From Odontocerum albicorne (Eukaryota > Arthropoda > Insecta > Trichoptera > Odontoceridae): a stretch of 64,000 nucleotides of DNA. Shown here in pieces: positions 531-61,640 of this stretch (position 1 is its first letter; each line of letters opens with the position of its first letter). The notes below the pieces were generated by a model that saw nothing but the letters and a program-made list of their open reading frames with translations, was not told the origin of the DNA and did not search any database. The stretch is from NCBI GenBank assembly GCA_949825065.1, contig OX463844.1:28516076-28580075 (forward strand). The letters run 5' to 3'. The position numbers and the translations under genes were made by a program.

Positions 531-1564
531 ACAATTTTCGAATTCCCAACATGACAATGAAAAACAATATCCGCTGGTAGTAGTCACCCTGGAAGTTTTT
601 CAAAAATAAAGGAGGATAGCTGGGAGTCAACATCTCAGGTCTCATTTAAGAGAATGAAAAATATACTATTTCATTTTCCGAATCTATCTGTGGTTTTTCA
701 ATATTTCAAATAAACAAAAAATGTACTTTGTGGATTGAGTGCTTTTGGCATATACTCGTACTTGTATACGTTCATTTCTGTTGGGTGTTTACTTAGAGAC
801 GGTCTGTTTGCCTATGATCCTCACCTGCAGAGGCTAACAATTCACTACTACCCACATAACTCCGCTGCAGTTAATTCTTTGAACTTGGTGTTTACAAGTT
901 GTGTAATGAAAGTGGCGTGGCGCGGGGAGGAGTGCATAGTAGACCGCTCCATGACATTTATTACGTGTTGGAACATGGCCAATAAGTTACCATTATGATT
1001 TTCGACTAGAATAGCTGCGTCCAGGGCCGTATATGCTCTTTGATGTTTCTTAAACGTTCCAAGAAAGAATTATAGTAAATCTAAAGCATAGAGAATCTTA
1101 ACAGGCTATCATCATTCTAACAATAACCAACGCTTTGTATACACTCGTACTTCTATTCTTCAACTTTTGCAATCGATGAACCTGTTCCTTCTTTATGTAT
1201 TTATGAGAAAAGAGTTAAAAAAGCATTATTTATATCAAAATGGTTCTCTTTCTTCATTTCTATACAATATCCACCATTTAGTTTTGTTTTCATAATTATT
1301 AATTGGTGTTTAAATATCATTCTTAATTCTTCAAGTTTTGGATACAGTCATTAATATTGAAAATAATATATTATTAAACTACTCGTAAAGTTATTTCACA
1401 GGAAGAAATTGCTACAAATTTATATGTCTAATATATATTTGTATAAAACCTTCGTGACAACCTACATAGTCGGTAAAAAAACCTGTCTTCGGTAATTTTG
1501 GATGATTTTCCATGGCACCCTTAAAAAACAAAGGAAATAATAAAATAAGAGTCCTAATATGGTA

Positions 1565-1740
1565 ATTAGTTCGTCTGGTAACAACATTCGTACATGTTAA
1601 AAGCGTGCTACAGTGTTGCCAAAGACGAACAACGAGTTTCGTGCCTGTTCCGGAAGCTTTAAAACTTATGAGTAAAATGGGGTCGATTACAAGGCTCTTC
1701 AATATGTGTACATCATCAATGCGGATGTGTTGAGGAACAG
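1565..1740 (+). repeat. SINE family B copy, partial
   Basis: Contains GTTCGTCTGGTAACAAC, then GAACAACGAGTTTCGTGCC, then CTCTTCAATATGTG and GGATGTGTTGAGGAAC. These occur in the same order as in the fuller copies at 39112 and 54323. The middle has small deletions and the 3' AATG-type tail is missing. Confidence 0.65.
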
Positions 1741-1842
1741 ATTAAAATAAATAATTGTAAAGATCTCAACAATTTTTTTAATGGATACTTTCTGTTGAAA
1801 ATGAGACATATGATAAACGCCATTTTTATGTCATATTCTATT

Positions 1843-2290
1843 ATTGGGTTGTCCGGAAAGTAATTTTGATTTTTTTTGGCCAAATTTAAGTACAAAATAA
1901 CGCTTAATGATCGTGAACAATAGTTTTCGACATTTTTAGTATCGCAGCGATCCTTGGTGTCGTAATACGCTGGTTATTTTCGATCAAAGGCTTGATTTTG
2001 TCGTTATCAGGGGTAATCAACATTGTAGAGCTGACACCATTTTCATGTGTTGTAACACCATTACTGATTTTAAACTACATTTGACACACGCGATCGCTTA
2101 CGGCATCCTCGTCAAACATTGTAAATATATTTTTTATGTTTGATTCTCATTTTTTTTTCTTTGTGATTGTAAAAAGCATCGAAAAACAAGTTGTTTTGTT
2201 CCACCTTCAAAATGACACCAAATAAAAACACTCAAACAATTTGGGTAAACAATGGCCAAACAATGCGCTTAGTTATCTTTCAAAATAATA
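1843..2290 (-). pseudogene. mariner transposase remnant, N-terminal part
   Basis: On the minus strand, bases about 2020-1905 encode DNDKIKPLIENN followed by QRITTPRIAAIL and KMSKTIVHDH, then a stop. This is the pattern of the second helix-turn-helix in mariner transposases, which bind the element's terminal repeats. The low-coordinate end begins TTGGGTTGTCCGGAAAGTAA, like a mariner terminal inverted repeat. The catalytic DDE region, which should lie between this helix and that end, is missing. The element is therefore an internally deleted, inactive copy. The matching terminal repeat on the high side is not clear. It differs from the mariners at 28.0 and 57.0 kb. Confidence 0.7.
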
Positions 2291-2959
2291 TATGTTATGG
2301 AACCCATACGAGATCTATCTGAAATACGATACTACTTTCCATCATATGAATTGTCATATCACTGACATTTAAGTTTTATTTGATCAGAATCAAAGGATTC
2401 TGATCAAAGGATTCCCCTTTGGGAAGAAACGATTTCAAAATTCATAGTCTAAAAGTGTATATGTAAATCATTTAAAATATTTGATTGCCCATAATACCCA
2501 ACATAATACCCAACAGATCGTTTATTACTTAATTTTCTAAAAATTTTCTTAAATCGTTTGATTTTTTCAAAATATTTGTATTGCAACAAATATGAATACT
2601 TCTAAGATAACATTATATTCTTCTAAGATAACAACAGGAAAATTACATTGAATTACGGTCCTCGTTGAATAATTATGTTATATGAGTTTATTCTCTATCT
2701 TCGTATGATTTGAACCCATAACATAATTCGCTTATAAAATTCTCATTTTCTTTTTGTTTTTAAACCTCACATGTGGAGATAGTTCAAATATCAAATTATA
2801 CGTATATTTTAATTAACCTTCATGTATGAGAAATACTGTTACATGAACAAATTTACTTAAAATTGTTTCAAATCGTTTGTTTCTCAATTTCGTCACATGT
2901 TTATGAACCATTATCACCCATTTCGAAAGGATATTATTATATATTAAATCATACTTGGT

Positions 2960-4790: not shown

Positions 4791-5060
4791 TAATTAGTTT
4801 AAGATTTTATTCGGTAGCATGTCAGAATAAAAATAAATATTTCAAGATGTTTGGAAATGTGTTCAAATGCCACTTGGAACTTGAGCATTAAGCATGCGCA
4901 AAGTGGCTTTTGATCACATTTTAACAAGCTCAGCATTTTAGCATCACAATTCAAAAGTTTCTTGTTTCTTATGGTGACCTGGGTATGTGACCATGCTTCA
5001 ACATCATAAAAGAACGGGAATATGTAGCAGTGGATCAATCGTAAGATATGTATGTACGAG
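4790..5060 (-). mobile_element. non-LTR retrotransposon fragment (family N2)
   Basis: On the minus strand, an open frame starts with a segment like LIHCYIFPFFYDVEAWS. This resembles the LLYGxExWT region found near the C-terminus of reverse transcriptases of many arthropod non-LTR elements. The rest is divergent and ends in AT-rich sequence. The same family is better seen at 34890-35330. The copy is dead. Confidence 0.55.
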
Positions 5061-5074
5061 TATATAAAGTGTAT

Positions 5075-5817: not shown

Positions 5818-5819
5818 GA

Positions 5820-6450: not shown

Positions 6451-9280
6451 ACGAATAATTTTATTCAGAAAAACTCGCCAATTGAAACAATACCGATAAT
6501 ATTGAACTTCATCGTCTTCCTAGTCTTATCCCAAATCTTGAGTTATATTCTACTGAGGTCAGTTCTTTTCGCCCGAAAGCTGTAGTTTCTTCTGTGTTAA
6601 TATAAAAAAATATATATTATATGATAAAGCAAAAAACATTATTTTTCCTCGTGATTTCGATTCCTCGTTCATAATTGTTTTGGTGTTAAGTATTTTCAAA
6701 TTCGACTTAGCTGTTACTGTGTAGATAATTTTAAAAATCAATGACACAAACTTTAAAATATTAAATACTATTTACTTATTTAAGAATAATTAAAAAAAAA
6801 ATTTAAATCTACAGGCCATGACAACTTACTTGCCTAGATCTGCAGAACGACTTATAAGGATTCCACGATTGAACAATGTGTAATATAATATAATATATGT
6901 TATGTATGTTATGGTGACAGATCGCTGCAAAGCTTAGTTTCTAGATTTTTAATGACATGCGACACTCTTGAACAGGTGAGAAATGTTCATAAAACAATAT
7001 ATATATCAACATATCCAAAAAACATTAGAACTTTTAAAGATACATCTATCTTTCGAAATATGGCGCTTGAAAATATTTATGTATAGTAAAAAACTGAAAG
7101 TTAATTATAAAATCAAATACAACTAAATTAAATTCAATAAAAAAATGCAAGTGATTAGGTAAAAATAAAATCTCGCTCAAAGGTAACTAGAATATAAAAT
7201 TATAGGGCAAATTACAAAATAAAAAATACTCCAAATAAAATGGATTAACCAGTCTTCAGTCAATACCTAAGATTGATGTAATACTATTGTAAAGAAAAAA
7301 AAAAATTTTGTTTCACTCACATTTTTCTATTCGCTGATTAGAAAACCGGAAAATAATCACAAAGTATGCGGAATAAAGTAACATAATTTAGTTTTTGTTC
7401 AATTATGTTAATAGAGAGTGTCACGGCACAAGAAAGACTTCAACATGATATATACGAGTAAATCGAAATAAATATTTATAATTAAAAGGTGGAATGAAAA
7501 ATTACTTAATTTATTGTGTTTATTCAAAGAATTATCATCTTATATATAGAAAATTTAATAAAAACTCTTCAGAATCTACGAGTTACGGTTTTTTTATACT
7601 AAGGAATCCAAGACGTTTTCAAGTAAGGAATAATAATTTGCCATGCCATCTCCCCTCTGTATTCCTGGATTGATGGCTGAAGAGATATCGGTGAATTTAG
7701 TTTTTCCGAATTTTACGTAAAACTGTTAAATTGGGGATGAAACGAAATGTTTAATCAAAAAGAAAATCTACCTGCCTAAGACCAACATTTCCAATAAAAC
7801 ACGTACATTAGACTCAGCCCCTTGGCGAAGAGATCCCATGGTGGAAAAATATCTTAATTGAAATGTATTTAGAGAGAAAAAGGAACTATCCTTTTGCTGA
7901 TCGATAAAAGGTCGGAAAAAAGGGTTGTAAAACTTTTATCTGAACCCAAAGTATTTAATTTAAATGTAAATCTCGTTACTGAAACTTGGCACTGTCTCTC
8001 TAACGACAAAGATAACATAATATTGAAACGTGAAAAATTTATATTTTTAGTTTCTCAAGATATTTTTTACTGTAATCTAAATACGTATATATTTCGAAAT
8101 TAAATTTAACGTTTTATTCCTTCTTTAGGTTAAATTTTTGTAGATTTTTAACTTTTAGAATAACAGTAGATTTAAAGATAAAATATTTTTCATGTGAGAA
8201 AAATAACTATTTTATAACTTTTTCATATTGAATAATGTTGCATTTTCATATTGAACAAGTGTATGCAATACGCAACTCTTAAAATGGAGATAAAATAATA
8301 TTTTTTATGTTTTAAAAATGTTTATAGTAATAAAGGCCACATTTTTTCTTTTAATTTAACAAGGACAATTTAGATATCCCAGTTAGAGCACAGCATTTCC
8401 TAAAGAGACTCTAACTTGGGAATTGACCCCTTTCTTGTCAGATACAAAAAAAAAATAAGCTGAGTGGAAGGATAGGAAAATGGTACCTGCGGCCTTTAAT
8501 TTTGGCACTTCTTCGCATTAGTTTATGTTTAAAAAAGCATATTTGGTAGTAAATTCGCAGAAAATTTGTCATGGTAAGACGGACTACAAAGAAACCTTCA
8601 TAAACCTTCTGGTCGACATAAAATCTCAAGTTCTTTTCAACCGATTGCCTTCAAATGTGGTATGAAACTCGAATAAATGTTTTTATATCGTCCCTACATT
8701 GGAATATTCAAAACAATTTTTTAACTATTTAAAAAAAATTGAAAAAAGTGTAAAAATATTGAATTTTTTTCAAACAGCCGCCATTTTACGATTTTTTTCT
8801 TTCTTTGGTACCAACTATAAAAAAATTATTTCTTATCAAGAAACTGTATGTAATTTTAGTTTCAAATTTATAAAAGGGTTCTAATCATGTCGACTAGCTT
8901 ACCTCCCTTTTTTTACGACAAGATATAACAGCTGATAACATCTTGAATTTTCAATTTTTTTTTTTCAAAAATGTTTTTGTACATTCTCAAATCATTAATA
9001 AACAAAATGTAAAAAATGTATAAGAAAAATAATTTTTGTTTTTTTTTATTTGTAGTCTAAAAAACGCCCGAAATTCACGCCTCTCGAGTAAAATACCCCC
9101 TTTTAATTAATTTAACATAAGAAAGAAATAGAAAACCATTTTTAAATCAGAAACCCTGTACTGTTCGTAGATAAAGGCATTTGGTATTTTTTCTGATATC
9201 AATTTATATACGTATAAACAAGTGCTTCTGAAGCTAAAACCGTGGGCTTAAAGTCAAGGGTAAAATTCATCCTCATCCTC
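6450..9280. other. AT-rich DNA without identified gene
   Basis: Very AT-rich, with only short frames of low-complexity composition. A stem-loop with arms CCCAGTTAGAG and CTCTAACTTGGG lies near 8380-8421. TACGAGTA occurs at 7453-7460. No protein or transposon family recognised. Confidence 0.5.
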
Positions 9281-9465: not shown

Positions 9466-9929
9466 CCATATGTACAAAACGTAGGCAGTTTGAGTAGTCG
9501 AGCAGTCTTTGTGTTCCAATTAAGAACTGTGAAAAAGGTTCGAAAAGAAAGATGTACTTCGATTTTTAGGATCACATATGGCACATAAAGAAGAAAAATA
9601 CAATATCATTTAAAAAAAAACATGAAACATCTTTAACAATACCTTGAATTGTAAACCAAACCAGTAAATAAGACCACAAGATGAGATAGGTAAGTTTACT
9701 ATATCACATAAAAAATATTGTAAAAACATATAATCATTTTGTAATGTCAATACTCGTATTTCGGTAAGCTATGAAATGACAGGAAAAAATAGAAATTATT
9801 ATGATTATAAATATTCATGATCTACTCGTATATTCAAACCTTTCTTACAACTCATTCTAAAAGCATGAGTTTTTTTTATGATCCGATAGCTTTTTTTTAA
9901 ACCTTTTTATTGTATTATCATTGTTCATT

Positions 9930-10142: not shown

Positions 10143-10149
10143 CACATTG

Positions 10150-11015: not shown

Positions 11016-11019
11016 GTAG

Positions 11020-13945: not shown

Positions 13946-15130
13946 GGGAATTGTTGTAGGCAGAGATCGACGGATGGATGTGCGAAATCATGAACCTCAT
14001 TAGGAATCAATCAAGAATAATAAGATATTTATATGTAAACTTAGCCTAGATGTATCAATAATCGTAATAATGATTTCATTTAATTATCATATGCTTCGTA
14101 TATATCAAGGTTATTTTTTTACATATATTTTCGTTTCATTTTTTTATTTTTTATTTCGTTTCTTTTATTGAAATCACGTCGAAGGGTTCATTAACATCAC
14201 AGTCTGCTTTTAACTGTCAATACATTTGAAAATAAAATTCTAAGAAAAACAATTAAATAGTTTTAAAAAATCTTAAAATTAAATCATATAATAAAATTCT
14301 TAAATTTTATTGCCTAACTTTTCAAATTATGAAATTCTTCAGGTTTTATAAAATTTAGTAAGCCTTTGGGAACCCTTTACTTTGTGAGTACATACGAGTA
14401 ATTAGGGCACATATTTCAAAAGCTTCAACAAAACCACACAGTTATTGATTCCATTATACTCAAATACGGAGGGTGTAAGAGTTTATTTTTTATAGTATTA
14501 AAGAATGAATGTTTTTTTCTAAATAAGATAGGATTCAAAATCAGTTTTTGTTGGGATCGAAAAGTTGAACAAAAACGTTGACGTAATAAATGAAACTCGT
14601 TTGTTTCAAAATAAATGTTTTGGGTTTATAGTTTCGTAGGCTTTCGTGATTATTGTTATAATGAACTTCTGTTTTTAGGTTATCAACTTCGCATAAATCG
14701 CGATATTGATAACAATCAACCCTCGACGATGAGAGCTTCAACAGTCTAAAAATGTTGGATCTTGAGCCTCAAAAACGCGTTATAAACCCCGAAAGATTAT
14801 TTACCTCATAATATCGTTTATGAATTTTCTTTATACTAGTTATTAAATTAAAATTGATTTATTCTTTCAAGTTATCCAATTAATCGATATATGGTATCTA
14901 TCCTTATAGCTCTCCTAGCTAAAAGTGTTTTCAGACATATTGAAAACAAGTTTTGAACTTTGGACGTATCTTAATCGAAATAAAACTGTATCTTTTATAA
15001 TTTCTCTGATTCACGCCATACTTTTAAATCACATACGTATTGATTAGACTTATTTTTGAGGGTATTTCTGAAAAACGATCGATGGTCAATCTATTCAGTT
15101 GGCCCCCTCACGCAAAAATATTGAAAAATT
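13946..15130. other. AT-rich DNA without identified gene
   Basis: No feature beyond one TACGAGTA octamer (14393-14400) and ordinary low-complexity sequence. Short open frames here have no recognisable motif. Confidence 0.5.
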
Positions 15131-15133
15131 GAA

Positions 15134-15253
15134 CATGACTACTACTCGTATTGTCATACATGACTACTACTCGTATTGTCATACATGACTACTCGTATTG
15201 TCATACATGACTACTCGTATTGTCATACATGACTACTACTCGTATTGTCATAC
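15134..15253. repeat. tandem array, 25-bp and 22-bp units, 5 copies
   Basis: Five head-to-tail units of CATGACTACTACTCGTATTG plus TCATA. Two units lack one ACT triplet. Every unit contains the octamer TACTCGTA that is enriched across the window, so the array was amplified after that octamer was present. Confidence 0.95.
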
Positions 15254-15537
15254 ACTTTTTTCTGGGTTTTGAATGATTCATAAATTTTTATTTTCTGGTA
15301 CTCAATATTGTTGCAAAATACAACACCAGAAAATACTCGTAGTTGCCTGACTCGATCTGTGAACTTTGTCTATTATATGATAAATGTAAAATTGGTAAAA
15401 ATAAATAAAAAATAATAAACGGTATCATTTTCACTAGAGTTCAGTTTAGTTATATACAATAATTTACCAAAAAATATTCAAGCCCGTCGTCGTAGCTAGG
15501 CCTTAAAATCGAGCATCTTTTCGATACTCCAATGGAA

Positions 15538-16725: not shown

Positions 16726-17390
16726 AAAACTACTTATGCCGAAAATGTAACTGAAATTGACATACTTAGTGTAAAATTAGTCTATTTTGACATGATCGAA
16801 ATAATATTATACAGGGTAAGATACTGGATTATGTATTATAAGTTAACACACACGTTAGAGATCTTATGAAATCATTGGATACTTTTTGAAGACCTTCATA
16901 TGGTGCGTAAGGTAAATTAATTGCGATCTAGATTTTTTTGCATATTATAAATAATATACTAATGGACGGATGTTATGGAGAAATGACAAGTTACTGTAAG
17001 AAACCCAAAGGTTTGTTACTGAAATAAATAAATTAATTCATATCCCGGCAACCCTCCAACGCTTTCTTTGGATGGATGTGAGAGACGAGTATTCTTAGTT
17101 AAATTATACCTTAACATTTTTACGTTACATATACGAGTAAGTCCATGCAAAGTGGTATGATGTTTCCTTGATTATCTCTAAACAGGTAACACGTGCGTTG
17201 AATCTTTTTTCATAAACATTGACGGTGTTTTGAGAAAGTGACAAGATCAAAACTGTAATTTTTCTTTATTTACTTTTGAATTGTATTATACAGGATGGTC
17301 CATCAGTCGCGCTGCAGTTTCAAAGATTTATAATTTATTTATTTGATTCTGTTTTAATTATTTTTTTTAAATATATTTTAACAAGCATTC

Positions 17391-28950: not shown

Positions 28951-29059
28951 TATGCATATATTGATATTTAGCTGTAAGATAATTAAATGTGTTTATGCAT
29001 GTATTGATACTTAGCTATAAGAGAATTAAATGTATTTATGAATACGAGTATATTGATAT

Positions 29060-35954: not shown

Positions 35955-36185
35955 GCTCAGTTACGTTGTTGATACGACGTCTCTCTTTCGATCCGGGGAT
36001 TGCGTGTTCGTTTCCCGTTTATACTCAGATTTTATAGAAAGCTTCCAATATGGTTTTCACTTTAAGCATATTTAACACCTTTCTGGCTAGTTAGAAAATA
36101 TTGCTGGAAGCTCGCTTGGTTATACTGTATATCTTTATAATGAAAGTGTAACATACGAGTAATACAATAGAATACAAAATGTAGT
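35955..36185 (+). repeat. SINE family A copy
   Basis: Head CTCAGTTACGTTGTTGATAC, B-box region GTGTTCGTTTCCCG, and a body with TGGTTATACTGTATATCTTT. The end is AATACAATAGAATAC. A TACGAGTA octamer at 36154 interrupts the tail where other copies read continuously. Confidence 0.7.
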
Positions 36186-38960: not shown

Positions 38961-39111
38961 ATTATATATGATATACTCGTATATCGAAAATGTAAAATAG
39001 TACGTTACTTCACATTTATTGAATGCCGGTGTTCTTCATTCGATCTCAGAGTTTTTTTGCCTACAATAACTAAAGATTTTAACATCACTCATTCCCAATT
39101 AATAAGTCTTG

Positions 39112-39939: not shown

Positions 39940-40462
39940 ACCAATATTTGATATTTGTAATAATTCAAACTCCATAATTCGAAACATGAAATAAATGAAA
40001 ACTGCTTGCATTACAGTCAAATTATCAATATTTGGTATTTATAATTATTTAAACTCCATGATTCGAAACATGAAATAAATTAACACTGCTTGCATTATAG
40101 TCAAAAGATCAATATTTGATATTTATAATTATTCAAACTCCACAATTCGAAATATGAAATAAATTAAAACTGCTTGCATTATCGTCAAAATAGCAATGCA
40201 TATTTGGTATTTATAATTATTCAAACTCCATAATTCGAAATAGAAAATATTAAAACTGCTAGTATTAGTGACAAACGACCAATATTTGATATTTCCAATT
40301 ATTCAAACTCCACATTACGAAATACTCGTATAATATATAAATCTATTGGCATTAGCGTTATAGATCAATATTTGATATTTTTTACTAATTAAACTCCATA
40401 ATTCGAAATATAATATCAAAACTATGGTATTGGCGCCAAACGACCAATATTTGATATTTCTT
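39940..40462. repeat. tandem array, 79-86-bp unit, 6 copies plus a partial
   Basis: Each unit starts ACCAATATTTGATATTT or a close variant, then has CAAACTCCATAATTCGAAA and ACTGCTTGCATTA. Unit starts are near 39940, 40024, 40108, 40192, 40278, 40364 and 40443. The first spacings are exactly 84 bases; later units are shorter or longer and more diverged. Unit 5 alone carries an inserted CTCGTA after CGAAATA. Confidence 0.9.
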
Positions 40463-42599: not shown

Positions 42600-43270
42600 A
42601 TTATTGTGATATAATTATGACGTACGATGATAAATCAATAATATTGGTTGAGAAAACGCTAAGTCAATTTTCAGTGAAAGATCGTTCCACACAATTCTTA
42701 GATTCATTTAGTAATTGAGTGCTTGGGCATGCAGAAGGAATGTCTTGGTCCAAAGGTTTGTGTGAACTCTTCCTCCACAGAGTTACTCGCGTGATACATA
42801 CGAGTACATGTAACATAATTGAGTCTCACTGTTTACCAAGTTGATGAGAGTTTTCGACGAGGTATTGTATGATGAATAATCGGAAAAAATACGAATCAAC
42901 TTATTTTTCCTTGTAATATGTCCTCAGTACACGACACGGGACACGACAAATAAAAGGCAACAAACCCATATTCACATAAATTGTGTTTTCATATATTACG
43001 TATTTATGAAATTTATTGTCACGTATAAATAAATAAAAAAAAGTACGACTCAACAACACTACATATCATACAGTAATTATAAAAATTAAACTTTCGTAAT
43101 AAATTTTTATTCAGGTTTTGACTTAAAAACAAAATGTTTTAAAGAAAAAAAAAATATTAATCAAAATGTCTCGAACGCCATAAAGCCTTATCCAGCCATA
43201 GGTTCCCCCTCTGGACACGGGGGCGGAGCTCCTTGTTCCCAGCGAGTGTCAGGGTCGCCTTTTGTTGCAG
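42600..43270 (+). other. probable intron before exon 43271
   Basis: Mostly AT-rich until about 43185. The last 80 bases are GC-rich and end in the acceptor GCCTTTTGTTGCAG. Confidence 0.45.
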
Positions 43271-44419: not shown

Positions 44420-45165
44420 CATTATACATTGAAATTACATATTTTTTCTTTTTGAAATAAAATAAACCCGAAATGTTAGTTATTGCAACTGAAGGATGTA
44501 GAGATACAATGGTTTTGAACCCTTTTATTTTAACCCCAGAATTTCGTTACCTTATATTTTATCTTTTATATATAGAAAACTCATGTGAATTGAGGAATGT
44601 TTTTTTATTTCAAGTATATTACCTCCATTCGCATAAAAATGTTTACTAGTTTACGCTTTGTAAGACGAAATTATGGTAAGTATTGAATCAAAAATAAGAT
44701 AAGATTCATTTCACTGATAAGATATTTTTTAAATTTTAAGCGAAATCTTATAATGTAATCAACACTACTAATTTTATGTGGTTAAGGTAGCAAGATACGT
44801 TTAAAGTTTGTTGAATGTTTGGACTGAAATGATATTTAACATACCTACTCGTATTTTTTGTGTGTAGTTTATAATCCACCAATTGCCATATCGGTTAGAG
44901 AATTATGTATATTTCTGTAGCCCGGAGTCATAATACACGTGTCGTGTCTATTTTGCTTATTTTACAGGAGAACAAATAAATGATGTTTTTTATTGGATCA
45001 TTTTAATAGTTAAAGACAGTTTACACTTTTTTTGTATGAATTTTAAAAAAAAAGTGTACAAACCAACTTATAAGACCTTTGAAAATTAAAAAAAATATGT
45101 CTATGATAAATGACGTTTAAAATGTACGCACGTTGTCTATGTCTCCGGGAAACAGATGAATATAC
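44420..45165. other. AT-rich DNA without identified gene
   Basis: No supported feature apart from a TACTCGTA octamer at 44846. Confidence 0.5.
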
Positions 45166-45169
45166 TCGT

Positions 45170-45615
45170 ACATGCATACATACCCACACCGCACCGTTTC
45201 CCTTTTGGGGTAGGCATTTCCACATCCATACACCTTTTCAAACAACACGATTTCTCTGACGTTTTACATTTTCTTCTTTCAAAGTATCAATTATTTGATG
45301 GAATTATATTTTCCTTGGTCTTTTCTACCACGTCTTGTACTCATTTTTGTACTGTATATTTGTTTTGTTTGTCTTTCTTCGTTTATTCTCTTCTCGTATC
45401 CAAAACGTTTCAGAGTGATCTTCTTCACCTTACTCAATACATCAGCCTTCAGTTCACATTCATCCCTAATAATTTCATTCCATATTCTATCACATATTGT
45501 CATCCAATATATTCTTCTCGGTACCCGCAATTGTATAGAATTTATTAAGTTCTTTTCAATATTTCAACGTCTACGTTTCACTCTCATATATCAAAGTTGG
45601 TACTAAAATACTGTT
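45170..45615 (-). mobile_element. N1 retrotransposon 3' end
   Basis: Minus-strand frame at 45530-45291 reads RRIYWMTICDRIWNEII then RDECELKADVLSKVKKITLK and RFGYEKRINEERQTKQIYS, the same blocks as at 16330-16500. The 3' terminus is at the low end (complement of TACCCCAAAAGGGAAACGGT, followed by GTAT units). Long + strand frames here are antisense. Confidence 0.8.
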
Positions 45616-45837: not shown

Positions 45838-45995
45838 TATACTATTGTATTACGGTAGTTTTATTGCCATGTGGCAAACCGGACTAGACTCTTTTTGAAA
45901 AATCTGGATACCAACGAAAATTGAACCTACGAGTACAACTTCCGAGCTGAGAGATAAAATCTTTCAAACTAGACCATGGAGGTTATTTACCATTG
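45838..45995 (-). repeat. SINE family A, short copy
   Basis: Minus strand: head AACCTCCATGGTCTAGTTTG, then GGAAGTTGTACTCGTAGGTT in the B-box region, GTTGGTATCCAGA and a short body ending TACCGTAATACAATAG. The octamer at 45928-45935 splits the B-box region; removing six bases restores alignment with other copies. Confidence 0.65.
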
Positions 45996-47172: not shown

Positions 47173-49420
47173 GTGAGTTCCGCCATATTGTTTCCTCCCG
47201 CCACCTCTTTCCGCTTTCACGGTAGGGGTGTTTATGCATGATAGCTTTGGAAAAGAACCGTTTGGACTTAATGTCATGGGTGATTTTATATTTTGATTCA
47301 GTGTGTACGTAGATTTGTGGTGTACACGCTTTCCGTTGTTGTATTTCACGTCAATATTAACTGCTTAAAGCTTCACTTATATTTAATTATTAGATATCTA
47401 CTCAGCAGCACAAAACGGAACACACAAACTCGATTGATATTTTTATATATCATACATACATACGTCATATACTTATGTTATTTTTATTTTAACCTATTTT
47501 TAATTGGTTATTATCCCAATTGAACATACATTCTAGTACTGTACCATAATATGTTATTATAGATATACGAGTAATATAACTGTACTTTCACATGAAATAA
47601 CTCTTGTGGACACCAAGGACTAAAATTGTTAGAATCTCAGAAGGCCAAAGCGAAGTAAGAAGGAATTTAAGAATTTCTTTAAATTTAAGAAAAAATAGTG
47701 TTAAGCCATGAACACAATTTAAAATAGAGACTTTAATTTGTCATTAGTCGTGATATTAGTTTTCTTTAAGTTTGATAGTTTAACGTATAATACAATATTT
47801 GAAAAAATAACCAAACGTAATATTTCATAATTATTAATTTTAAGATATTCGTCCAAATTTGTAGATTTTTCGAAAAGAGTTTTTCATAAATTTTGCAAGT
47901 GGTTTTCTATCCTGATTCTGATAATAAATATTTTGTTTAGCAATAAATATTAAATAATAAATAGTAATTAAACAAAAATTATATGAAATTGTTCATAACA
48001 TTTTGTGTTGCTGTGTGTGATTTCTACATTTAAATATAAAAAAGAACTTTAAGACCTGTTTAGACTTGAGTGTGTAAGCTAAAAATAACTTCAAATCGAA
48101 ATGTTGCTTCGTTCACACTCGTTGCAATTTAGTTTAACCAGTTCATTTTCGTTTTATACAAATACTTGAAATTTGATAGTAACGAATAAAATGTATAAAA
48201 AAGTTAAATTGATTACCAATGAGTGTGACAGATATTTAATTGACATTTTGTTTTGCCAAGGTTGTGCACTATAGGCTAAATGGATTATCATCGGTACGAA
48301 TATTTGAATGTTGCCGGAGGTTTGTGCGAAATATCGCACGCTAACTTGTATTTTCATTTAAATAAAATTAACAATATCATGGAAGGTTGAATTGTCGCAC
48401 TTTTTCAACCAGGTAGATGTTTAAACCATTCACGAGAATGTTCATTTCAAGAAGAAATGAAAACTTAACTTTAGATCACTTTTCACGGATTAGCACAGAG
48501 AGCTTCAAGCAAAATCGACAATTTAAGAAATAAAACAAAGCAACTCAATTATGTCATGCCGACTTTCAATCTTTGATCGTATTCAAAGCTGTCGTTGATC
48601 AAGATATTTCGCGTGTGTAAATGTATCTTATAAAAATGTTTTTGAACGTCGGTACTTTTCCGTCAATTTAGAAAACCAGAAAAAAGTAATCAAGGATATA
48701 TTTATTTGTTATTTCTTTCATATTAGATAATTTCGCTCCGATAATAGTCATCCATAGGTTTTTAAAAATGTTACTTTCAAATATTTATGATGTTCATACG
48801 TCATTAAAAATGTATAGACCTTTCCGCAATCAAAGGCAGCTCTAGATCAGATAAAAGGTTGATGATCATTGTTGGTATGATATGAATCAGACTTTACACG
48901 CGAGCACCTAATTTCGGAATCACAGAGCAAACAGAATTTGATAATTTGTATCCTTCTTGGCGCACACGTATACTGATTTTTGATGTATTGTAAATATAAA
49001 TTTTGATTTCATATATGTTTATTTCTTCGATTTTTATTATTATTCACGTATTCACGGAGCACCAAGTACCAGCAACTGATTTGAATAGCAAAATATAAAT
49101 TTTATCGATTGCGTCTTTATCGTTCTAATATAACTAATAATACACTTTTCAGCATGCTACATTAATGTGAAAATATTACTTGAACATTAATAATTATTTC
49201 CTTCCATAACATCTGTCGGAGTTTAAGGTTTTCATAGTTTTCACCGCACATACTTATAATTTTAAAAATGTGTTTTCTACGATTTTCGTGAAATGAACAA
49301 TATGGGAAAGAACTTCCCAGCATCGATCAACATCTTTATCTGAGCACTATTCAACTTTTAATGCTTGAAGTTAGACGCACTCATTCTTTCCGATAATACC
49401 TTAGCAAATATTTTTATATT
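47173..49420 (+). other. probable intron, AT-rich
   Basis: No feature supported except a TACGAGTA octamer at 47576. Confidence 0.45.
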
Positions 49421-49530: not shown

Positions 49531-49827
49531 TTTATACTTCTACTTAAGTATTATGTATGTATTATTGTTTTCGTTTGAAAATTCAATTTACTTTGTATGG
49601 TTACTAATACGAGTATACATTATTATATTTTACAAGTTTTGGCCATTAAAATACATTTTTGAAGGTTCTGCATATTCCAGTTATTCAAGCAAAGAAAATG
49701 GCCTTGATGATTTTCACTTGTATTATATTTCATATAAATAAGCAATAAACTATAATATATATAAGTAATATAATCATATGCGTTTATCTAAACATGTGCA
49801 GATGCGGGGAAGTACTTAAACTTTTTT

Positions 49828-51243
49828 TTTATTGAACAAAGTAATATAACATATGGTACAAATATTTGCCAAGGCTATACCTATATACAAATTTATTACT
49901 TAACTAATCTTAATTATAAATTATAATTAATGAACTAACTTAATCTTATTTTCCTACATATAATTTTATTTTTATTTTTTATAATCATAATATGATTTCT
50001 TAGAAATAATTAACACCTACATACTTACTATTAATCATACTTTTTTATTAAACAAGTAAATTATTGTACAAACATTTGTCAAGGCTATACCTATATACAA
50101 ATTTATTACTTAACTAATCTTAATTATATGTTATAATTTATGAACTTATTTAATCTTATTTTCCTACATATCATTTTATTTTATTTATTCAATCTTAATA
50201 TATGAGATCTTAGAAATAATTAACACCTACATACTACTTATAACTAGATAACAATTCTTACACTAATTATTTAGCAAAAACAAGTCCACTCGTTCAGGCT
50301 ACTTGTATTCCATCACATTCACTCAGACCTTGGTCGTCCCAGCTAATACTGAAGGTGGACTAGTCAGGCAACAGATAATGCTTCGGGAGCTTGTGCTTAT
50401 AACGGAAGGGTAGGTCGGATTTACTCTCGTAAGCCCCCAGGGCAGCGACTAAGGGATTTCTGTAATTTTGTTGGCTTTTATAGAACTTCACGGTCCAAGC
50501 GAGGATGTGGTGTTGTAGGGTTTCTTCTCGCTGTTCAGCGTGAAGTCGGGTAAGATTTGTTCTGGGATGGGTGTTAAAAGATATCTTGAATGCCTTGTTC
50601 TGCACTCTCTGGAGTTTCAGGTGATCCGTGTTGCTCACACTACCCCAAACGGGTGCAGCATAGGTCAAGATAGGACGAATAAGGGTTTTATAGAGGAGGA
50701 GCTTATTTTTGGGGGAAAGGAAGCTGCGTCGATGAAATATCGAACTGATAGCCCCTATGCCCTTGTGACCCTTCTGTCTGATGGTATTCAAATGGGTTTT
50801 CTACGTCAGTCGCCGGTCAAGGTGCAGGCCGAGGTATTTAACCACGTCCTGCCACTCAACCAGGCAACCACCGATGAATAAGGGCATCGACGGCACTCTT
50901 TCCTTGATTTTTCGGGAGAACATGATGGCCTCAGTTTTGGCGTCATTGATTTTGAGCCTCCAGTCCTGGTAGTATTTCTCATGGATCTCAAGAGCAATCT
51001 GAAGACGGCGACCAGCTCGATCCACCTTGAGTGACGATGCGTAGCATGCCGCATCGTCAGCAAAGAGTGCGAGTTTACAGTTTGGGGGAGTAGGAATGTC
51101 GTGTGTGTAAATGTTAAATAGACATGGTCCAAGTATACTGCCTTGGGGGACACCCATAGGGATGGGCCTGGTGGATGACGTAGAATGATGAGTGGTGACT
51201 GTGAAACTTCTATTGGAAAGGTAGGATTGAAGTAGTTTCACGA
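49828..51243 (-). mobile_element. Jockey-type LINE, copy A (5' truncated)
   Basis: Minus strand. The frame 51241-50801 carries the reverse transcriptase palm: RPIPMGVPQGSILGPCLFN and LALFADDAACYASS with the catalytic aspartates. A frameshift leads to 50791-50360 with LYKTLIRPILTYAAPVWGSV and LQRVQNKAFKISFN, the Jockey-clade thumb, ending at a stop near 50360. The 3' UTR (49828-50245) is duplicated in tandem with a period of 210 bases. No endonuclease or N-terminal RT part is present. It abuts the 3' end of copy B. Confidence 0.88.
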
Positions 51244-53800
51244 GGCACCTACATACTATTTAACATAATTAGATAATAATTCTTTCAAAAATGTTTTTAG
51301 CAAGAACAAGTCCACTCGTTCAGGCTGCTTGTATTCCATCACATTCACTCAGACCTTAGTCCTCCCAGCGAATACTGTAGGTGGACTAGTCAGGCAACAT
51401 ACTCGTATAAAGCTTCGGGAGCCTGTGCTTATAACGGAAGGGTAGATCGGATTTACTCTTGTAAGCCCCCAGGGCAGCGACTAATGGATTGCTGTGATTT
51501 TATTGACTTTTATAGAACTTCACGGTCCAAGCGAGGATGTGGTGTTTTAGGGTTTCTTCTCGCTGTTCGGCGTGAAGTCGGGTTAGGTTTATTCTGGGAT
51601 GGGTGTTGAAAGAGATTTTGAATGCTTTGTTCTGCACTCGTTGGAATTTCAGGTGATTCGTGTTGCTCACACTTCCCCAAATGGATGCAGCATAGGTCAA
51701 GATAGGACGAATAAGGGTTTTATAGAGGAGGAGCTTATTTTTGGGTGAAGGAAGCTTCGTCGATGAAATATCGAACTGATAGCCCCTATGCCCTTGTGAC
51801 CCTTCTGTCTGATAGTATTCAAATGGGTTTTCCACGTCAGTCGAGGTGCAGGCCGAGGTATTTAACCACGTCCTGCCACTCAACCAGGCAACCACCGGTG
51901 AATAAGGGCATCGATGGCACTCTGTCCTTGACTTTGCGGGAGAACATGATAACCTCAGTTTTGAAGTCATTTATTTTGAGCCTCCAGTCCTGGTAGTATT
52001 TTTCAAGGATTTCAAGAGCAATCTAAAGGCGGCGACCAGCTCGATCTACCTTGAGTGACGATGCGTAGCATGCCGCATCGTCAGCAAAGAGTGTGAGCTT
52101 ACAGTTTGGGTGAGTAGGTATGTCGTGTGTGTAGATGTTAAATAGACAGGGTCCTAGTCTACTGCCTTGGGGCACACCCATAGGGATGGGCCTGGCGGAT
52201 GACGTAGAATGATGAGTGGTGACTGTTAAACTTATATTGTAAATGTAGGATTTTCGTAGTTTCACAAGATAGAAAGGAGTGCCAGTAAGGAGACGTTTGT
52301 CGAGAAGGCCATCGTGCCAGACGTGGATTTTCGGTAAGTTTATTTGGCTTGTGGATAGGAACAATATTGACTAGTTTCCAAATACTCGGAAAATAGCCCT
52401 TGAGGAGTGAGGCATTTATTATTTCAGTAAGAAAAAATCTCGCTTTAAGTGGTAAATGTTTAAAGAAGGATATTGCGTATATTGTCGGGGCCGGGGGCTT
52501 TTCGTGTTTTAAGTCTGTCAAGGATACGACCAATTTCGGACGGGGTGCAAAGTTGCACCTCATTTTGGTTGGTCGGGGAGCAAAGCTAACGAGAGTGTCC
52601 TCGACAGCTTTGTTGACATCAAAATTTTCAAGGTCGGAAGTGATTGAGTACGTATTCTCGTAAGCGTCCGCCAAGGCCTTGTCAATGCCAGCCAACAGCC
52701 AACTCTGAGGTTGTGCGCAGAGGTGGTATGCTCTGAGACGAGCACTTAATACCCTTGACGACTCGCCAGATAGTACCATTATCCGGTTTCAGGGCCGCCA
52801 ATTTTCTCTGCCATAATTGGTTTTTAAATAGGCGGATTTATTTTTTGATTTCATCTTGAAGAACGTTTAATAGTGTTTTGTCACGTTTGTCTAGTGTACG
52901 TCTGTCTTTGTTTGGTTTATAGGGATATAAGGAGTTTTATATGAGGAGTGAGAGTTATTTGGTATGGAGTGACAATTTTGACGAGAACATTTTCATCACG
53001 AGCATAATGGATGAAGGTGGATATGATATCGATCGCGGCATCGATGTCCTGTGGGCTCACCAGAGTTTCAGGTGATAGACAGAGCTGGTTGTGGAGGTAG
53101 GCTTTGTAGCCCTTCTAGTCAGCATTGGCGTAGTCGTACTGCTCCCTGAATCTAGCAATCGGCCTCACTCCCAATGTGAAGTAGACTGGGAGGGGGTATG
53201 ACGAGAGAGCTTCTAGAGCAGTCAACCCAGAGATGTTGGGGTAGTTTTTGGCTACGGCAATGTCCAGTGTAGAAGGACTACGGGGGTTGGTGAAACAGGT
53301 ATGTTGATTTGGATGGAGTATTTGACAATTGTGGCTTTACATATAATTGTACAGCGTCGTTCCGTTTGGGTTAGCTCTCAAGCAGTTCCAGTAACGGTGC
53401 TTGGCATTGAAGTCCCCGGCCATGATGACCTTGGCCCCCATGGCCAACACTGCCTCGATGTCCTTTTCAAGAAGTTAACGATAGTCGATACAATATGCTG
53501 CCATAATGGTGACTGTCTCCCGGTCAATCTTGAGGCTGATGGCTATAGCCTCCAGGTTTGTTAGGGCAGGCGTGAGGAGTTGGGTATGATAGATAGTTTT
53601 GGATGAGGATCGCGGTGCCTCCACCTCTACCGGAAGTGCGATCCGATCTCTAGACGGTAAAGCCACCGATGCCTCTCATACTAGAGTCAGGTTTTAGCCA
53701 GGTTTCCGTAATAAGCATAATATCTATATCTGAATTGTTCACCAATAGCATCAGCTCCTCGATTTTCTGCTGCATGCTGTAGGCATTTCCTTCTTTCTAA
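51244..53800 (-). mobile_element. Jockey-type LINE, copy B (with endonuclease, internal RT deletion)
   Basis: Minus strand from high to low coordinates. The apurinic-type endonuclease region (QQKIEELMLLVNNSDIDIML, ITETWLKP, TNLEAIAISLKIDRE) spans about 53790-53100. A linker and RT fingers (LTEIINASLLKGYFPSIWKL, NIVPIHKPNKLTENPR) reach 52350. A jump to a WHDGLL block follows, so the RT core carrying the first catalytic Asp is deleted. Then comes the palm (MGVPQGSRLGPCLF, LTLFADDAACYASS) and the thumb (LIRPILTYAASIWGSV). Many stops and frameshifts. Inactive. Confidence 0.85.
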
Positions 53801-54610: not shown

Positions 54611-54839
54611 TTATTAAAATAAAACTTTCATCGAGATTTCTCGACCCCTGCAAACTCTGCTGTTTATAAAAATAAATGTGTTCGTTTTTCTCAGAAAATA
54701 TATTATTTTCCTTTTATATATGTTATGTAAGTTATGTTTATTTTCGCGACCTCAAACATTTAAAATTTCTGGAGTCGGAAATTATTTAGCCGACCCCACA
54801 ACACTGTACGAGTAAAATATCCTTTGGCAGCGTTTTGTA

Positions 54840-54950
54840 GCTGCCTATTATCAAGTCGAAATTATACTTGACATAGTGGCTTTGGATCACGACAAAAAAT
54901 ACAAAACAGCGCTATATAAACCATGAAAATATTATTATCATTACGAGTAC
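54840..54950 (+). repeat. SINE-like family C copy with ATT tail
   Basis: GCTGCCTATTATCAAGTCGA, then AACAGCGCTATATAAACCAT and a TATTATTATCATTA tail that ends in the octamer TACGAGTA. Confidence 0.5.
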
Positions 54951-56300: not shown

Positions 56301-56304
56301 CTCC

Positions 56305-57037: not shown

Positions 57038-57039
57038 TA

Positions 57040-57994
57040 CTAGGTAAGTCCAGAAAGTAAGTGTACTGAATTTTTGTAGGTTACAATTTTTTTATTTAAA
57101 CAAAAAAATTACGTGGTTACCGTAGTACATATGTAAGCTATTTTTCGACATAGTCGCCATTCCTCTCAATGCAGGTGGTGAAGCGGGGTATCAACTTTTT
57201 GATGCCTTCCTCGAAGTAGTTTCCCGCCAACCCCTCCGTCCACTTCTCCAACTCCTCCTTTACCTCCTCGTCGGTTGAAAACCTTTTTCCACCCATGTGC
57301 AGCTTCAGGGAGGTAAAGAGACAGTAATCTGAAGGTGCTAGGTTAGGGGAATGCGCGGGATGGTTCAGGACATCCCATTTAAACGAGGCGAGCAGTTCCT
57401 TTGTGGCGTTGGTCGTGTGTGGTCTGGCATTGTCATGCAGCAGGCAGACTACCTTTGTCAGCATGCCTCTCCTCTTGTTCTGAATCGCCCTCCGCAATTT
57501 TTTTAGGGTCTCACAGTATCTTGCAGAGATGATGGTCTCCCCTTGAGGCATATATTCAATCTGCGATCGTCACGGAGCGCATTTTCGATTTTTTCCACAA
57601 TTTCGTCAGTCACAATTGAAGGTCTTCCGCTCCTCTGATCATCATGCACAGACGTACGACCGTTTTTCAATTCGCGACACCACTTGTTCACACACTTACG
57701 ATTCATAGCTTTATCACCATATGCAGTTTTCACCTCATTATAAACCTCAACCGGAGGTTTTCCCTTCCAAACGAGATAACGGATGACGCCGCGTATTTCG
57801 CACTTGGCGGGAGATTGGATTGACATTTTTCACGAAACGTGTTGTCGCGTCGACACTTCTCAACGTACTGACCTCGAACCGGTCTCGTTGCGGAGGGGAA
57901 GGGTCAGGCTACACGGAAGTGTAGCCAACATGTCGAAAATAAAATCCATCCGGTCGTGAGAGCCTCAGTACACTTACTTTCTGGATAGGCCTCG
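57040..57994 (-). mobile_element. mariner element with CGAG termini, 955 bp, internally deleted
   Basis: The right end reads CTGGATAGGCCTCG followed by TA. The left end reads, after TA, CTAGGTAAGTCCAGAAAGTA, matching the inverse of the right end (CGAGGCCTATCCAGAAAGTA) with several substitutions. The terminal inverted repeats are about 28 bp. The element is flanked by TA. A deletion removes the middle of the transposase gene. A second copy of the same family lies inverted at 58174-58645. Confidence 0.9.
57135..57826 (-). pseudogene. mariner transposase, broken by central deletion
   Basis: The N-terminal DNA-binding part (57826 down to about 57545) has CEIRGVIRYLVWKGKPPVE, VNKWCRELKNGRTSVHDDQR and SGRPSIVTDEIVEKIENALR. 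The frame then changes and resumes with QGETIISARYCETLKKLRRA and CLLHDNARPHTTNATKEL. NHPAHSPNLAPSDYCLFTSL and a C-terminus CIERNGDYVEK follow. The second and third catalytic aspartates (HDN and PSDY) are 34 residues apart, as in the mariner D,D34D triad. The first aspartate (GDET-type block) and the second helix-turn-helix are deleted, so the protein would be inactive. Confidence 0.9.
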
Positions 57995-58069
57995 TATATT
58001 ACTTTTTTTCGCTATATTACTGAATAGCGCTTTACAATTTATTGGGTTCGAAAATAATTCACGGTTGTT

Positions 58070-58165: not shown

Positions 58166-58173
58166 TGACAGCT

Positions 58174-58645
58174 TAAATTGCGGAGGGCGATTCAGAACAA
58201 GAGGAAAGGCATGCTGACAAAGGGAGTCTGCCTGCTGCATGACAATGCCAGACCACACACGGCCAACGCCACGAAGGAACTGCTTGCCTCGTTTAAATGG
58301 GATGTCCTGAACCATCCCGCGCATTCCTCTGACCTAGCACCTTCAGATTACTATCTCTTTACCTCCCTGAAGCTGCACATGGGTGGAAAAAGGTTTTCAA
58401 CCGACGAGGAGGTAAAGGAGGAGGTGGAGAAGTGGACGGAGGGGTTGGCGGGGTTGGCGGGAAACTACTTCGAGGAAGGCATCAAAAAGTTGATACCCCC
58501 CTTCACCTCCTGCATTAAGAGGAATGGCGACTATGTCGAAAAATAGCTTACATATGTACTACGGTAACCACGTAATTTTTTTGTTTAAATAAAAAAAATT
58601 GTAACCTACAAAAATTCAGTACACTTACTTTCTGGATATGCCTCG
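58174..58645 (+). mobile_element. mariner copy 2, 5' truncated, inverted relative to copy 1
   Basis: Begins within the transposase gene (AAATTGCGGAGGGCGATTCA) and ends GGATATGCCTCG, followed by TA. The frame 58178-58546 encodes RRAIQNKRKGMLTKGVCLL, HDNARPHTANATKELLASFK, HPAHSSDLAPSDYYLFTSL and ends RNGDYVEK. It is intact to the stop and contains a 9-base in-frame duplication (GLAGLAGN). The left terminus and the N-terminal half are missing. Copies 1 and 2 form an inverted repeat of roughly 470 bases. Confidence 0.9.
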
Positions 58646-58735
58646 TAGATAAAAAAGTAATATAGATAAAAAAAAGTAATATAATAGATAAAAAAATTAA
58701 TATAGATTAAAAAAAGGATGAAAAAAATAAACCAC
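58646..58735. repeat. imperfect AT-rich simple repeat
   Basis: Repeated TAGATAAAAAAAGTAATA-like units immediately right of the mariner end. Confidence 0.8.
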
Positions 58736-59180
58736 CAAAATATAAATAAACAACCATCTTTCACCTTGTCAACCGTTTTCCGCGTGTTCAATTTACAAAC
58801 TTGAACAATAAATGTAACCACTTTATCACAAGCGTTGCCTAGTGAAGTGGTTCCCTATTTCCATAAAATTGTGACTTGTATGTCGTGTACTATGTATTCT
58901 ACGGTTCGCTTATCTATTAAAACAATCTAAACTGTAAATATTGTATCGTGGATAATAAAAATACTGAGCATGTGGTGGTTGAGTTATGTAGTCTACTTGG
59001 AAATTTATAAAGAATGAAATATCTCAGTTTGTAACTAAAGCTTTTGGCACCTGGAAACGGAAAACATTTTAATGGCAATTTAAATTCGATTACGCACATT
59101 ACTAATATAGTATTTAAAAATAGTAAAACTTTTGCCAAAAATTAATTATAGTTTGTCCGAATATTTGCACTAATATATAT
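58736..59180. other. AT-rich DNA without identified gene
   Basis: No feature supported. Confidence 0.45.
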
Positions 59181-59182
59181 TA

Positions 59183-59265
59183 CTAGTTGCAACCCGTGAA
59201 ATATTCACGGAAGTAAAACAAATTCTACATTTATGAAAATATATATTCATAAATATAGAATTTGT
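59183..59265 (-). mobile_element. possible Helitron 3' terminus
   Basis: On the minus strand a perfect hairpin CCGTGAATATTTCACGG is followed by GTTGCAACTAG and then T. Helitrons end in CTRR shortly after a GC-rich hairpin and insert between A and T, which fits. A second hairpin with roughly 20-bp arms (59218-59265) lies just inside. The 5' TC end and any Rep/helicase gene were not found, so this could be a non-autonomous copy or a coincidence. Confidence 0.35.
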
Positions 59266-59269
59266 TTAT

Positions 59270-61640
59270 ATACTCGTATATATATCATTTATACATCGTC
59301 CCCTTTTACACCGGTTCAAAAATTGCTATGTATTTACAATTCGTTCAGTATTACGGACCCACCGAGATTCAAACTTCGAATTACTTTCGCAGAGAATCTA
59401 AGTATTCCTCTCTCGCTCTCTTGTATTCAAAATTCAATTCTCGTATTCTTTCTTTGACGACAACCATCGTATGGGTTTTGGCCTATAATATACAAACTTA
59501 CACACGTCTTCAATTTAACAAATATTTTGCAGTGTTTTCCTATTTCGTAATTTCTAGCAATTCGATAATTTTCTGTGTTTTTAACAATTTTCAAACTTCC
59601 CAATTGTTGAGCAGGTTTCTGAAAACTTTTATCAACGATTAAAAATAACGTTTTGCATATTTTCTATGATTTAAGAAGTTTAAGGTAGTTACGGGTATAA
59701 CTTGAAAATTTCGTCAGTTCACTATTTATTTCAAACATTTTCATCAGTTAAACCTTAGCACACACGTTATACATACATGGTATTCAGATATGGATTGGAA
59801 ATCACAATGGAAGAACTGACATTAAATCTGTACGTTAGAGCTGAAACTCCGGATGTCACATTTGCAAAATTGTTCAGTTTCAGACTTTTTGCCCTTTAAT
59901 TAATTAAGTTGGATTACTAAAAGCCTGGATGTTACAATGTATGACTCTTACTCCGGTAGCTCAGTATAGGTAAAACAAGGCTCAATAAGATCTCAAGATG
60001 TCGTGGGAAGAGGTAGGCATTCGTCAGTGCTTGGGTAGGTATAAATACATAATGAAACACATATTTGCTGTTAATAGGTTATATATTTAATCCTGACGAG
60101 CTGATACTCCGTCAGGAAAATCAAATGGGCAGATTTCTCTCTGCTACTCCGCTAACCTTTCAGATGGACAGGCAGTCGAAGTAATTTATTATCAGGGGTA
60201 ATCACACAACAGTCCGTTGCGGAAATGTGTCAATTCTCAAAGATTAGATCTCGCCAATCTCTAGAATACTCAGATATCACCATAAAATGACAAGCAAAAG
60301 AGGATAAATAAGGTTGATCTTACTCCAATACAGGACAAAATGTATTATCCCAGATCCGCTTCAAGTGTATGACCAGGTCGACTCGTATATGGCCCTCTGA
60401 CCTTATACTGTTACTACAGGGCCGCTGATGTGAAGAAATTCCCTCAGTGGTTGGCGACCGCCAATTCGTGCCGTAATACACCCACACGACTCAGTTCCTC
60501 CAGAATTTACCGGACAAATTGTATCAAATAAGAATGAACAATCAAATGTGAGAAAAGCTTGTTCAAGTTCGCGAACAGCGTCAAGACGAGAATGATGTTG
60601 ACTTGATAACTTCGTGGCGAGGAAGATGTGGGGAGATCGCGGTTCCTTTATTTAAGGGATCTCCCCAAGCTCCGCCATTTTGGAACTCTTTAGAAAGTTG
60701 CTCGCGACCGTAAAAAAAATCATAAATCTTTTTTGTCCGGCCGGACGTTATTTTGCCAATGAATAGTATATTTAAACTTTCACAGCGTAATTAAGTCGAG
60801 AATCCCTTTTGTATAACATCCGGTAACCCTAAAGGCGACACTTAAAATTGCTTAAGGGACAATAGTCACTTCTTTTGAAATGTATCTCGAGTGAAGTGTT
60901 TTTTTTGTCTTCTTACCGTTGAATCCATATTTAACTATGTCCGCAATAAATTAAGCGCGACGTATTTCTTTAGAAAGGAGAAGAGAAATTTTTGACCCCT
61001 TTTTTCTTTCTCGCATAACAATCGCGGTCATAAAAGCGCATACACCCTCTGAAATATATCTTGCGCAAAGTTTTATTTCTTTTCTTAGTAACAATAGTTA
61101 TCTGTGACTGCAATAAATCAGATCGTAAGACGGAACACTAATTGCCGATCCTCATAAAGTGTCGTGTATTTCTATACAAACGGGACGACAAAGCCAGCCA
61201 CTCGAGGCAGTTAAGCTTGAAACAATAGGAAGCAATCCTTCTCGAAAATGACGCAAGATCTCCCTTTGACTGTCCCGGTTCGCTATTTTTAATGGTTATT
61301 TTTAACTACAATAAACTAATTGGTCGGCCGTACCCAAGTCCTGACACTCCATTTTATGTTACCGAAAAGAAAAAAAAATATTAAAAAAAAATAATAATTC
61401 AAGTACTGATTACGGCCCTGTGTCAATTGGTCATACACCTGCTTGCCGAAACAAGGATTAGATACTATGCTAAAGGGCATGACGTTACTGGGTCATGCCG
61501 GATACGCTCGTGGACGATTTAATAAGCCCCTGCATTTGCGAAAGAGTAGGAAACCACGAAAAACTAACTCTCAGGGCTTCCCTATCTAAGAACACCTGGA
61601 AACAGTTAAACATTTTATAGAGCAAGGCACAATACAGGAG
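59270..61640. other. less AT-rich DNA, no gene recognised
   Basis: From about 59900 the sequence becomes less AT-rich and loses the octamer and SINE signatures seen elsewhere. No open frame with a motif. It might be LTR or untranslated sequence of a retroelement, but I saw no paired LTRs. Confidence 0.4.

Follow-up and report, generated by a model that had tools for sequence, protein, structure and literature searches.

A recurrent octamer in Odontocerum albicorne as a probable excision footprint of a CGAG-tipped mariner

A 64,000-nucleotide stretch of the genome of the trichopteran Odontocerum albicorne (contig OX463844.1, positions 28,516,076 to 28,580,075 of the forward strand; hereafter the window) is dotted with a single octamer, TACTCGTA or, on the other strand, TACGAGTA, which raises the question of what has scattered one exact word through this DNA. 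An earlier note on the window proposed that the octamers are scars left by the excision of mariner transposons whose tips read CGAG. This interpretation is supported by 6-bp gains at TA, by a target preference shared with a mariner family of the window, by mariner copies at matching TAs of one repeat, and by the absence of any other TANNNNTA octamer of comparable enrichment. We consider it likely (probability roughly 0.8) that most octamers were left behind by excision of this young and abundant mariner, possibly helped by other CGA-tipped families.

Abundance and exactness of the octamer

The window contains exactly 36 exact copies of the octamer, 24 as TACTCGTA and 12 as TACGAGTA, in agreement with the previous hand count of about 36 in both orientations. 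By contrast, 100 dinucleotide shuffles of the window averaged 1.59 copies, with no shuffle holding more than 6. After masking of 12 tandem arrays, 26 copies remain against 2.36 expected under an order-3 Markov model, so that the former figure of roughly 30 copies outside arrays falls short under this masking and is recovered, at 30, only if the two octamer-bearing arrays count once each. Two of the positions listed before were wrong and are corrected here, from 30963 to 30964 and from 47576 to 47566. The octamer has the highest order-3 z score among all octamers of the window and the highest z among the 105 TANNNNTA classes present there, the runner-up class being TATTTTTA with a z of 3.4.

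The excess extends over the genome (1.287 Gb in 1,241 contigs), in which pattern matching, the basis of all genome-wide counts given here, found 381,502 copies, compared to 30,151 for the reversed pattern used as a control. We also analyzed a 224-kb sample composed of the window and sixteen other 10-kb stretches (160 kb outside the window); small pieces were sampled in addition, and labels such as L009 or L016 denote genome stretches sampled outside the window. With tandem repeats masked, this sample holds 87 octamers against 6.5 expected, more over-represented than any other octamer. The sixteen stretches contain 62 octamers in total, from 0 to 18 each, with at least one in 14 of the 16, and the flanks are non-redundant in 93 of the 98 sampled octamer sites. 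The earlier note had named equal enrichment of other TANNNNTA octamers as a sign against footprints; none comparable was found in either the window or the masked sample.

The excess is confined to the exact word. Pooled together, the 24 one-mismatch variants occur 43 times in the masked window against 43.4 expected, and 142 times in the masked sample against 134 or 145 expected. Genome-wide, 1,223,381 matches with at most one mismatch leave 841,879 with exactly one, compared to expectations scaled from the sample of ~855,000 (order 2) or 900,000-920,000 (order 3). A halo of decayed copies, seen as a one-mismatch excess, is therefore visible neither in the window, nor in the sample, nor genome-wide. 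The reversed control, whose base composition differs from that of the octamer, gave 990,232 matches at up to one mismatch. Even with the lower of these expectations overstated by 10%, the mean divergence of the octamers would be below ~3%. In the absence of this halo the octamers, previously described as “fossil” footprints, look young instead.

Octamers are unevenly spread. Stretch L016 (G000:C2:27000001-27010000) holds 18 octamers in 10 kb, compared to 0-5 in the other fifteen stretches, including four close pairs 25-33 bp apart, and a 72-bp tandem array of 16 copies (L016:1-1186) lies upstream of its octamer-rich part. Local hopping or open germline chromatin are possible causes of this density. 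Pairs in direct or inverted order only 10-19 bp apart were seen at L020:189/199, L022:2430/2449 and L023:89/100. At G000:C1:25700 and 25706, two octamers overlap with an offset of six bases, as expected if the TA of a footprint was targeted again to give a double footprint such as TACKMGTACKMGTA. In addition, one repeat carries the octamer at the same place in all three of its sampled copies (L015:2197, L021:2230 and L022:5166), implying that the footprint there was multiplied along with the host repeat.

Gains at TA and the shared target preference

Octamer-bearing and empty sites were compared between paralogous copies within one assembly, which are not alleles. A qualifying diverged paralogue was available for 18 of the 98 sampled octamers, and six of these keep the octamer in all paralogues. 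Of the remaining 12 loci, five have a best non-identical paralogue that lacks exactly 6 bp, corresponding to a change from TA to TACTCGTA. In the control set of other TANNNNTA sites, 368 of 2,162 had a paralogue, of which 133 kept the word, and a 6-bp difference was found in only 4 of the other 235. Two further loci, L016:7805 and L020:7606, also show a clean 6-column gap, but with an indel close by. The earlier prediction of plain TA at related sites is thus borne out at several paralogous sites with exactly 6 bp fewer. In a coarse all-against-all indel scan, the octamer accounts for 4 of 13 six-base insertions; this class forms no global spike, because one-base insertions are far commoner (113 of 279 sites).

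Three comparisons lie within the window. The octamer at 51400..51407 (forward strand) makes its repeat copy exactly 6 bp longer than an octamer-free copy of 89% identity at 50228..50525 (forward strand), which adjoins a reverse-transcriptase frame (RVT_1 match at 50801-51259) and has GA at the place where TA is expected. In an 84-bp array, one unit has the octamer at 40323..40330 (forward strand); the following unit has a 6-bp gap leaving TA, and the remaining units show no clean 6-bp difference. The octamer at 29043..29050 (reverse strand) sits in a third, partial tandem unit; the two units without it, at 28951..29036 (forward strand), have TA and TG, respectively, at the matching position, whereas a repeat copy at 27963-28010 differs from it by 4 bp, not 6. 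Judged from the paralogue alignments, the octamer appears as a 6-bp gain at TA in several of the comparable loci, and its layout corresponds to terminal element bases held between two copies of TA at a former TA site.

A repeat centred on (TA)n provides occupied, octamer-bearing and empty copies of the same sequence. It was found at window 59170-59440, L009:7560-7840, L013:8970-9150, L088 and L089. The octamers at window 59271..59278 (forward strand) and at L009:7723 were gained separately; they occupy different TAs and point in opposite directions, whereas the L013 copy has neither octamer nor mariner. In L088, a mariner is inserted at the TA that carries the octamer in L009:7723, although the stretch examined did not show its right end. 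In L089, the left junction of a mariner matches that of the octamer at window 59271, but the right side is off by two TA units and the far end reads CTAG. These two are among the first 60 mariner ends listed genome-wide, and a third among the first 100 (L095) also has its flank in this repeat, at other TAs. As far as these alignments show, the mariner uses TAs that bear octamers in other copies, as the footprint interpretation predicts, which does not imply a one-to-one derivation of any octamer from any copy. This repeat is apparently a hot target of the window's mariner family. Two other mariner ends, L040 and L078 (G000:C1:923452 and 2812292), share one 16-base flank, which suggests a second repeat serving as target. 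When the flanks of the mariner copies in the window and of three more from elsewhere in the genome were compared with the sample, no octamer case was noted.

The flanks of octamers and mariner ends agree in fine detail. Octamer flanks are palindromic, with A at -3, few G at -2 and A at -1 (30 window sites; 93 sites or 186 half-sites in the sample), and approach background composition beyond ~3 bases. AYA stands beside the TA in 55 of the 186 octamer half-sites, compared to 6.8% of all TAs, and it precedes 3,327 of the 10,439 mariner ends found genome-wide and 28 of the first 100 listed, all of which come from contig C1. The log-odds of mariner-end and octamer flanks correlate with r = 0.87 at positions -4 to -1, and the correlation at -12 to -5 is not significant (r = 0.29, p = 0.10). 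For Tc1, the target consensus is CAYATATRTG. The octamers thus prefer the kind of target chosen by the CGAG-tipped mariner family of the window, as expected of footprints.

The mariner family, the four-base insert and the rival explanations

Two copies of the candidate source element lie in the window, one internally deleted with flanking TAs (57038..57996, reverse strand; left end TA-CTAGG) and one truncated with an approximate start (58175..58647, forward strand). The right ends of both read ...CCTCG-TA, and CTCG indeed directly precedes TA at 57994 and 58645, as the earlier note had it. The family ends in TA-CGAGGC(A/G)TATCCAGAAAGTAAGTGTACTGA, and a single 24-base pattern derived from it fits 10,439 ends genome-wide, compared to 0 for the control. 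L025 is a full-size copy of ~1.28 kb ending in TACGAGGC(A/G)TATCCAGAAAGTAAGTGTACTGA; together with L026 and L027, it has matching ends that start with CGAGGC and are flanked by TA, giving a terminal inverted repeat of ~30 bp and a TA duplication. L025 encodes a helix-turn-helix of the Mos1 type (HTH_48, 30.4 bits; cut-off 24.1). Transposase_1 partially matches a window copy at 27.3 bits (cut-off 24), and the L025 fragment reaches only 20.1 bits. On the open reading frame in the window, 34 residues were counted by hand from one D to the other in HDNARPH...APSDY, and this D34D spacing of a DDE/D transposase, combined with the Mos1-type helix-turn-helix, places the family among the DD34D mariners. 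Its five best protein relatives share 84-94% identity over 206 residues; named matches include Ignelater, a click beetle, Cacopsylla, a psyllid, and, along part of the protein, relatives of leafcutter ants. Among six copies or pieces compared pairwise, mostly 1.4-5.4% of the ungapped columns differ, such that copies would mostly lie ~1-3% from their common source, within the range allowed for the octamers. Accordingly, both look recent, the octamers for want of a halo and the mariner for its low differences. A second CGAG-tipped mariner-like end, TACGAGGGTGGATC..., lies at L012:6219 and could yield the same footprint. No TACGAG...CTCGTA pair with similar ends was found in the window.

We infer that the transposase of this family produced most of the octamers. 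It would insert the element at TA, preferably in the context AYA-TA-TRT, duplicating the TA; upon excision, a few terminal bases would stay on each flank and the break would be end-joined, converting TA to TACGAGTA (TACTCGTA on the other strand). Mariner cleavage is described as leaving a stagger of 3 nt (PMC5714172, PMC7827188). Consequently, both flanks should end in a 3' CGA. Such overhangs would not pair when fully aligned, but an offset of one base would oppose the two GA steps as tandem G·A mismatches, lying between two C:G pairs once each strand gained one filled base. Either strand might then resolve to CGAG, yielding one word read as TACGAGTA or TACTCGTA. Tandem G·A mismatches have special stability; a literature search on them gave nothing useful among the matches listed. 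This is the route that we favour; a cut with a 4-nt stagger, exposing CGAG, would lead to an identical word. Footprints of 2 and 3 nt were rejected, since TACGTA and TACGATA are not enriched in the masked sample.

The scale of such excision can be roughly gauged. Subtracting chance and tandem copies from 381,502, we estimate ~3 x 10^5 independent events. At a mutation rate of 3e-9 per generation, that number within ~2% divergence would correspond to events on the order of 0.05 in each haploid genome and generation; spread over 10^4 element copies, the rate would be ~5e-6 per copy and generation. By this rough reckoning, the number is not extravagant. On balance, and with less assurance than for the footprint interpretation itself, we favour a fuller picture in which one mariner family with a near-single repair outcome went through ~3 x 10^5 germline excisions within a few percent of divergence, dozens-fold above its present copies. 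The octamer would then constitute a datable genome-wide ledger, its invariant four-base product arising from tandem G·A annealing or from a 4-nt stagger.

Several observations weigh against an origin of the octamers from this mariner. The reading frames inspected, those of L025 and of the window copies, are not intact: L025 has a broken frame, and of the window copies one carries an internal deletion and the other is truncated. L025 and L026 differ by ~10% over 709 columns; with this stretch and the 1.4-5.4% spread, the match in age between octamers and mariner is rather loose. There are ~36 octamers per mariner end found, which means that most source insertions would be gone. The insert has four bases rather than the length of a 3-nt overhang, and the 3-nt form TACGATA is found 21 times against 29 expected in the masked sample. 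Generic DNA energies for the CGA overhangs (3 nt, -10.5; 4 nt, -14.7; 5 nt, -20.1) favour 4 over 3 nt, but they favour 5 nt most and so give the 4-nt alignment no special place, yet the matching 5-nt word is rare in the masked sample (TACGACGTA, 2 against 0.73), where TACGAGGTA stands at 4 against 0.92. The energy argument is hence only partial. The flank preference is somewhat weaker in octamers, with T at -1 at 0.16 compared to 0.05 in mariner ends. AYA/TRT flanks accompany 22 of 78 inner one-mismatch variants, compared to 379 of 2,170 other TANNNNTA sites, and this slight enrichment means that some older octamers may exist. Moreover, some paralogue comparisons are unclean, the best paralogue of 40323 differing by 3 bp, that of L016:7830 by 0 and that of L024:7060 by -30.

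Could the footprints instead stem mainly from a different Tc1/mariner or miniature inverted-repeat family with CGA or CGAG tips, perhaps nearly lost by now? TA targets may be common to related elements, another mariner-like end with a CGAG tip exists at L012:6219, and the octamers greatly outnumber the ends of the known family. However, the window family agrees with the octamers in its fine target preference, is also young and occupies matching TAs of the 59.2-kb repeat. In addition, among the non-octamer TACGAG words in the loci then sampled, it turns up three times (at two window ends and in L014), whereas inspection by eye showed no other mariner-like end occurring repeatedly. We therefore regard a mainly different source as unlikely, though it is the strongest competitor of the window's mariner.

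The other explanations dispense with excision altogether. A functional binding motif under selection, be it a regulatory, chromatin or chromosome site, would suit a single exact word with no one-mismatch excess that is present in 14 of 16 sampled stretches, and the octamer resembles in form the genome-wide motifs of bacteria. Such a motif would hardly arise as exact 6-bp gains at TA within repeat copies at several sites, nor carry the flank preference of an integrating transposon with little conservation past 3 bases; we rejected this origin on these grounds and hold it to be very improbable. Base composition, the growth of microsatellites or amplification of a single repeat would fit the 8 of 36 window copies that lie in two arrays and the local clustering of 18 copies in the 10 kb of L016. 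These explanations are contradicted by the masked counts (87 against 6.5), by shuffles that never exceed 6 and by non-redundant flanks at 93 of 98 sites, and were rejected with a residual probability close to nil.

Positions in the window and relation to known systems

Octamers in the window were identified by exact match. Besides those described above, single copies lie on the forward strand at 753..760, 1380..1387, 9751..9758, 9823..9830, 15334..15341, 25746..25753, 25889..25896, 26074..26081, 30964..30971, 31595..31602, 38974..38981, 44846..44853 and 45163..45170, and on the reverse strand at 5055..5062, 7453..7460, 14393..14400, 17132..17139, 36154..36161, 42799..42806, 45928..45935, 47566..47573, 49608..49615, 54807..54814 and 54942..54949. 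Two forward-strand arrays carry one octamer per unit: a 22/25-bp tandem array at 15143..15244 with five (15143, 15168, 15190, 15212 and 15237), where the octamer is presumably older than the array itself, and a 103-bp tandem array at 35508..35721 with three (35508, 35611 and 35714). The window is otherwise AT-rich, except for a GC-rich 232-bp tandem repeat of 2.7 copies at 62680-63307. Rfam and tRNA scans gave no matches, and the protein frame at 52.2-52.8 kb had no protein match at E <= 0.001.

It is normally difficult to tell from a finished genome where DNA transposons have been excised. If the octamers are indeed footprints, past transpositions could be counted, mapped and dated without a surviving element, and the germline excision rate, local hopping and the repair outcome could be measured from an assembly alone. 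The octamer would also document an unusually uniform end-joining product. It would further caution against taking the most over-represented short word of a genome for a regulatory motif, as such a word can be the scar of a transposon.

Among known systems, the closest likeness is to Sleeping Beauty and other Tc1/mariner elements, in which a few terminal transposon bases remain between two TA copies at the old site. Their footprints made by non-homologous end joining are described as matching the 3-nt overhangs (PMC7827188), and footprint lengths are given as 2-4 bp for the Tc1/mariner superfamily and 0-3 bp for ZB (PMC7913693). In O. albicorne, by contrast, the insert has four bases in essentially one form, and the record is genome-wide (~3 x 10^5) rather than the product of an assay. 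Passer, a member of the pogo superfamily, leaves footprints of 0-4 bp in an excision assay in cultured cells, and its report, as far as available to us, describes no genomic record (PMC9976928). Mariner-2_DF of the fire ant represents a recent burst of an insect mariner that followed horizontal transfer, and a somatic excision was seen; it has 857 copies, compared to the 10,439 ends fitting the 24-base pattern here, and the word “footprint” is absent from the main text of its report (PMC6307670). Among the literature matches listed, to the extent of their available text, no genome-wide footprint word or octamer is described. Footprints as such are known; the uniform four-base product and the scale of its record are the new parts.

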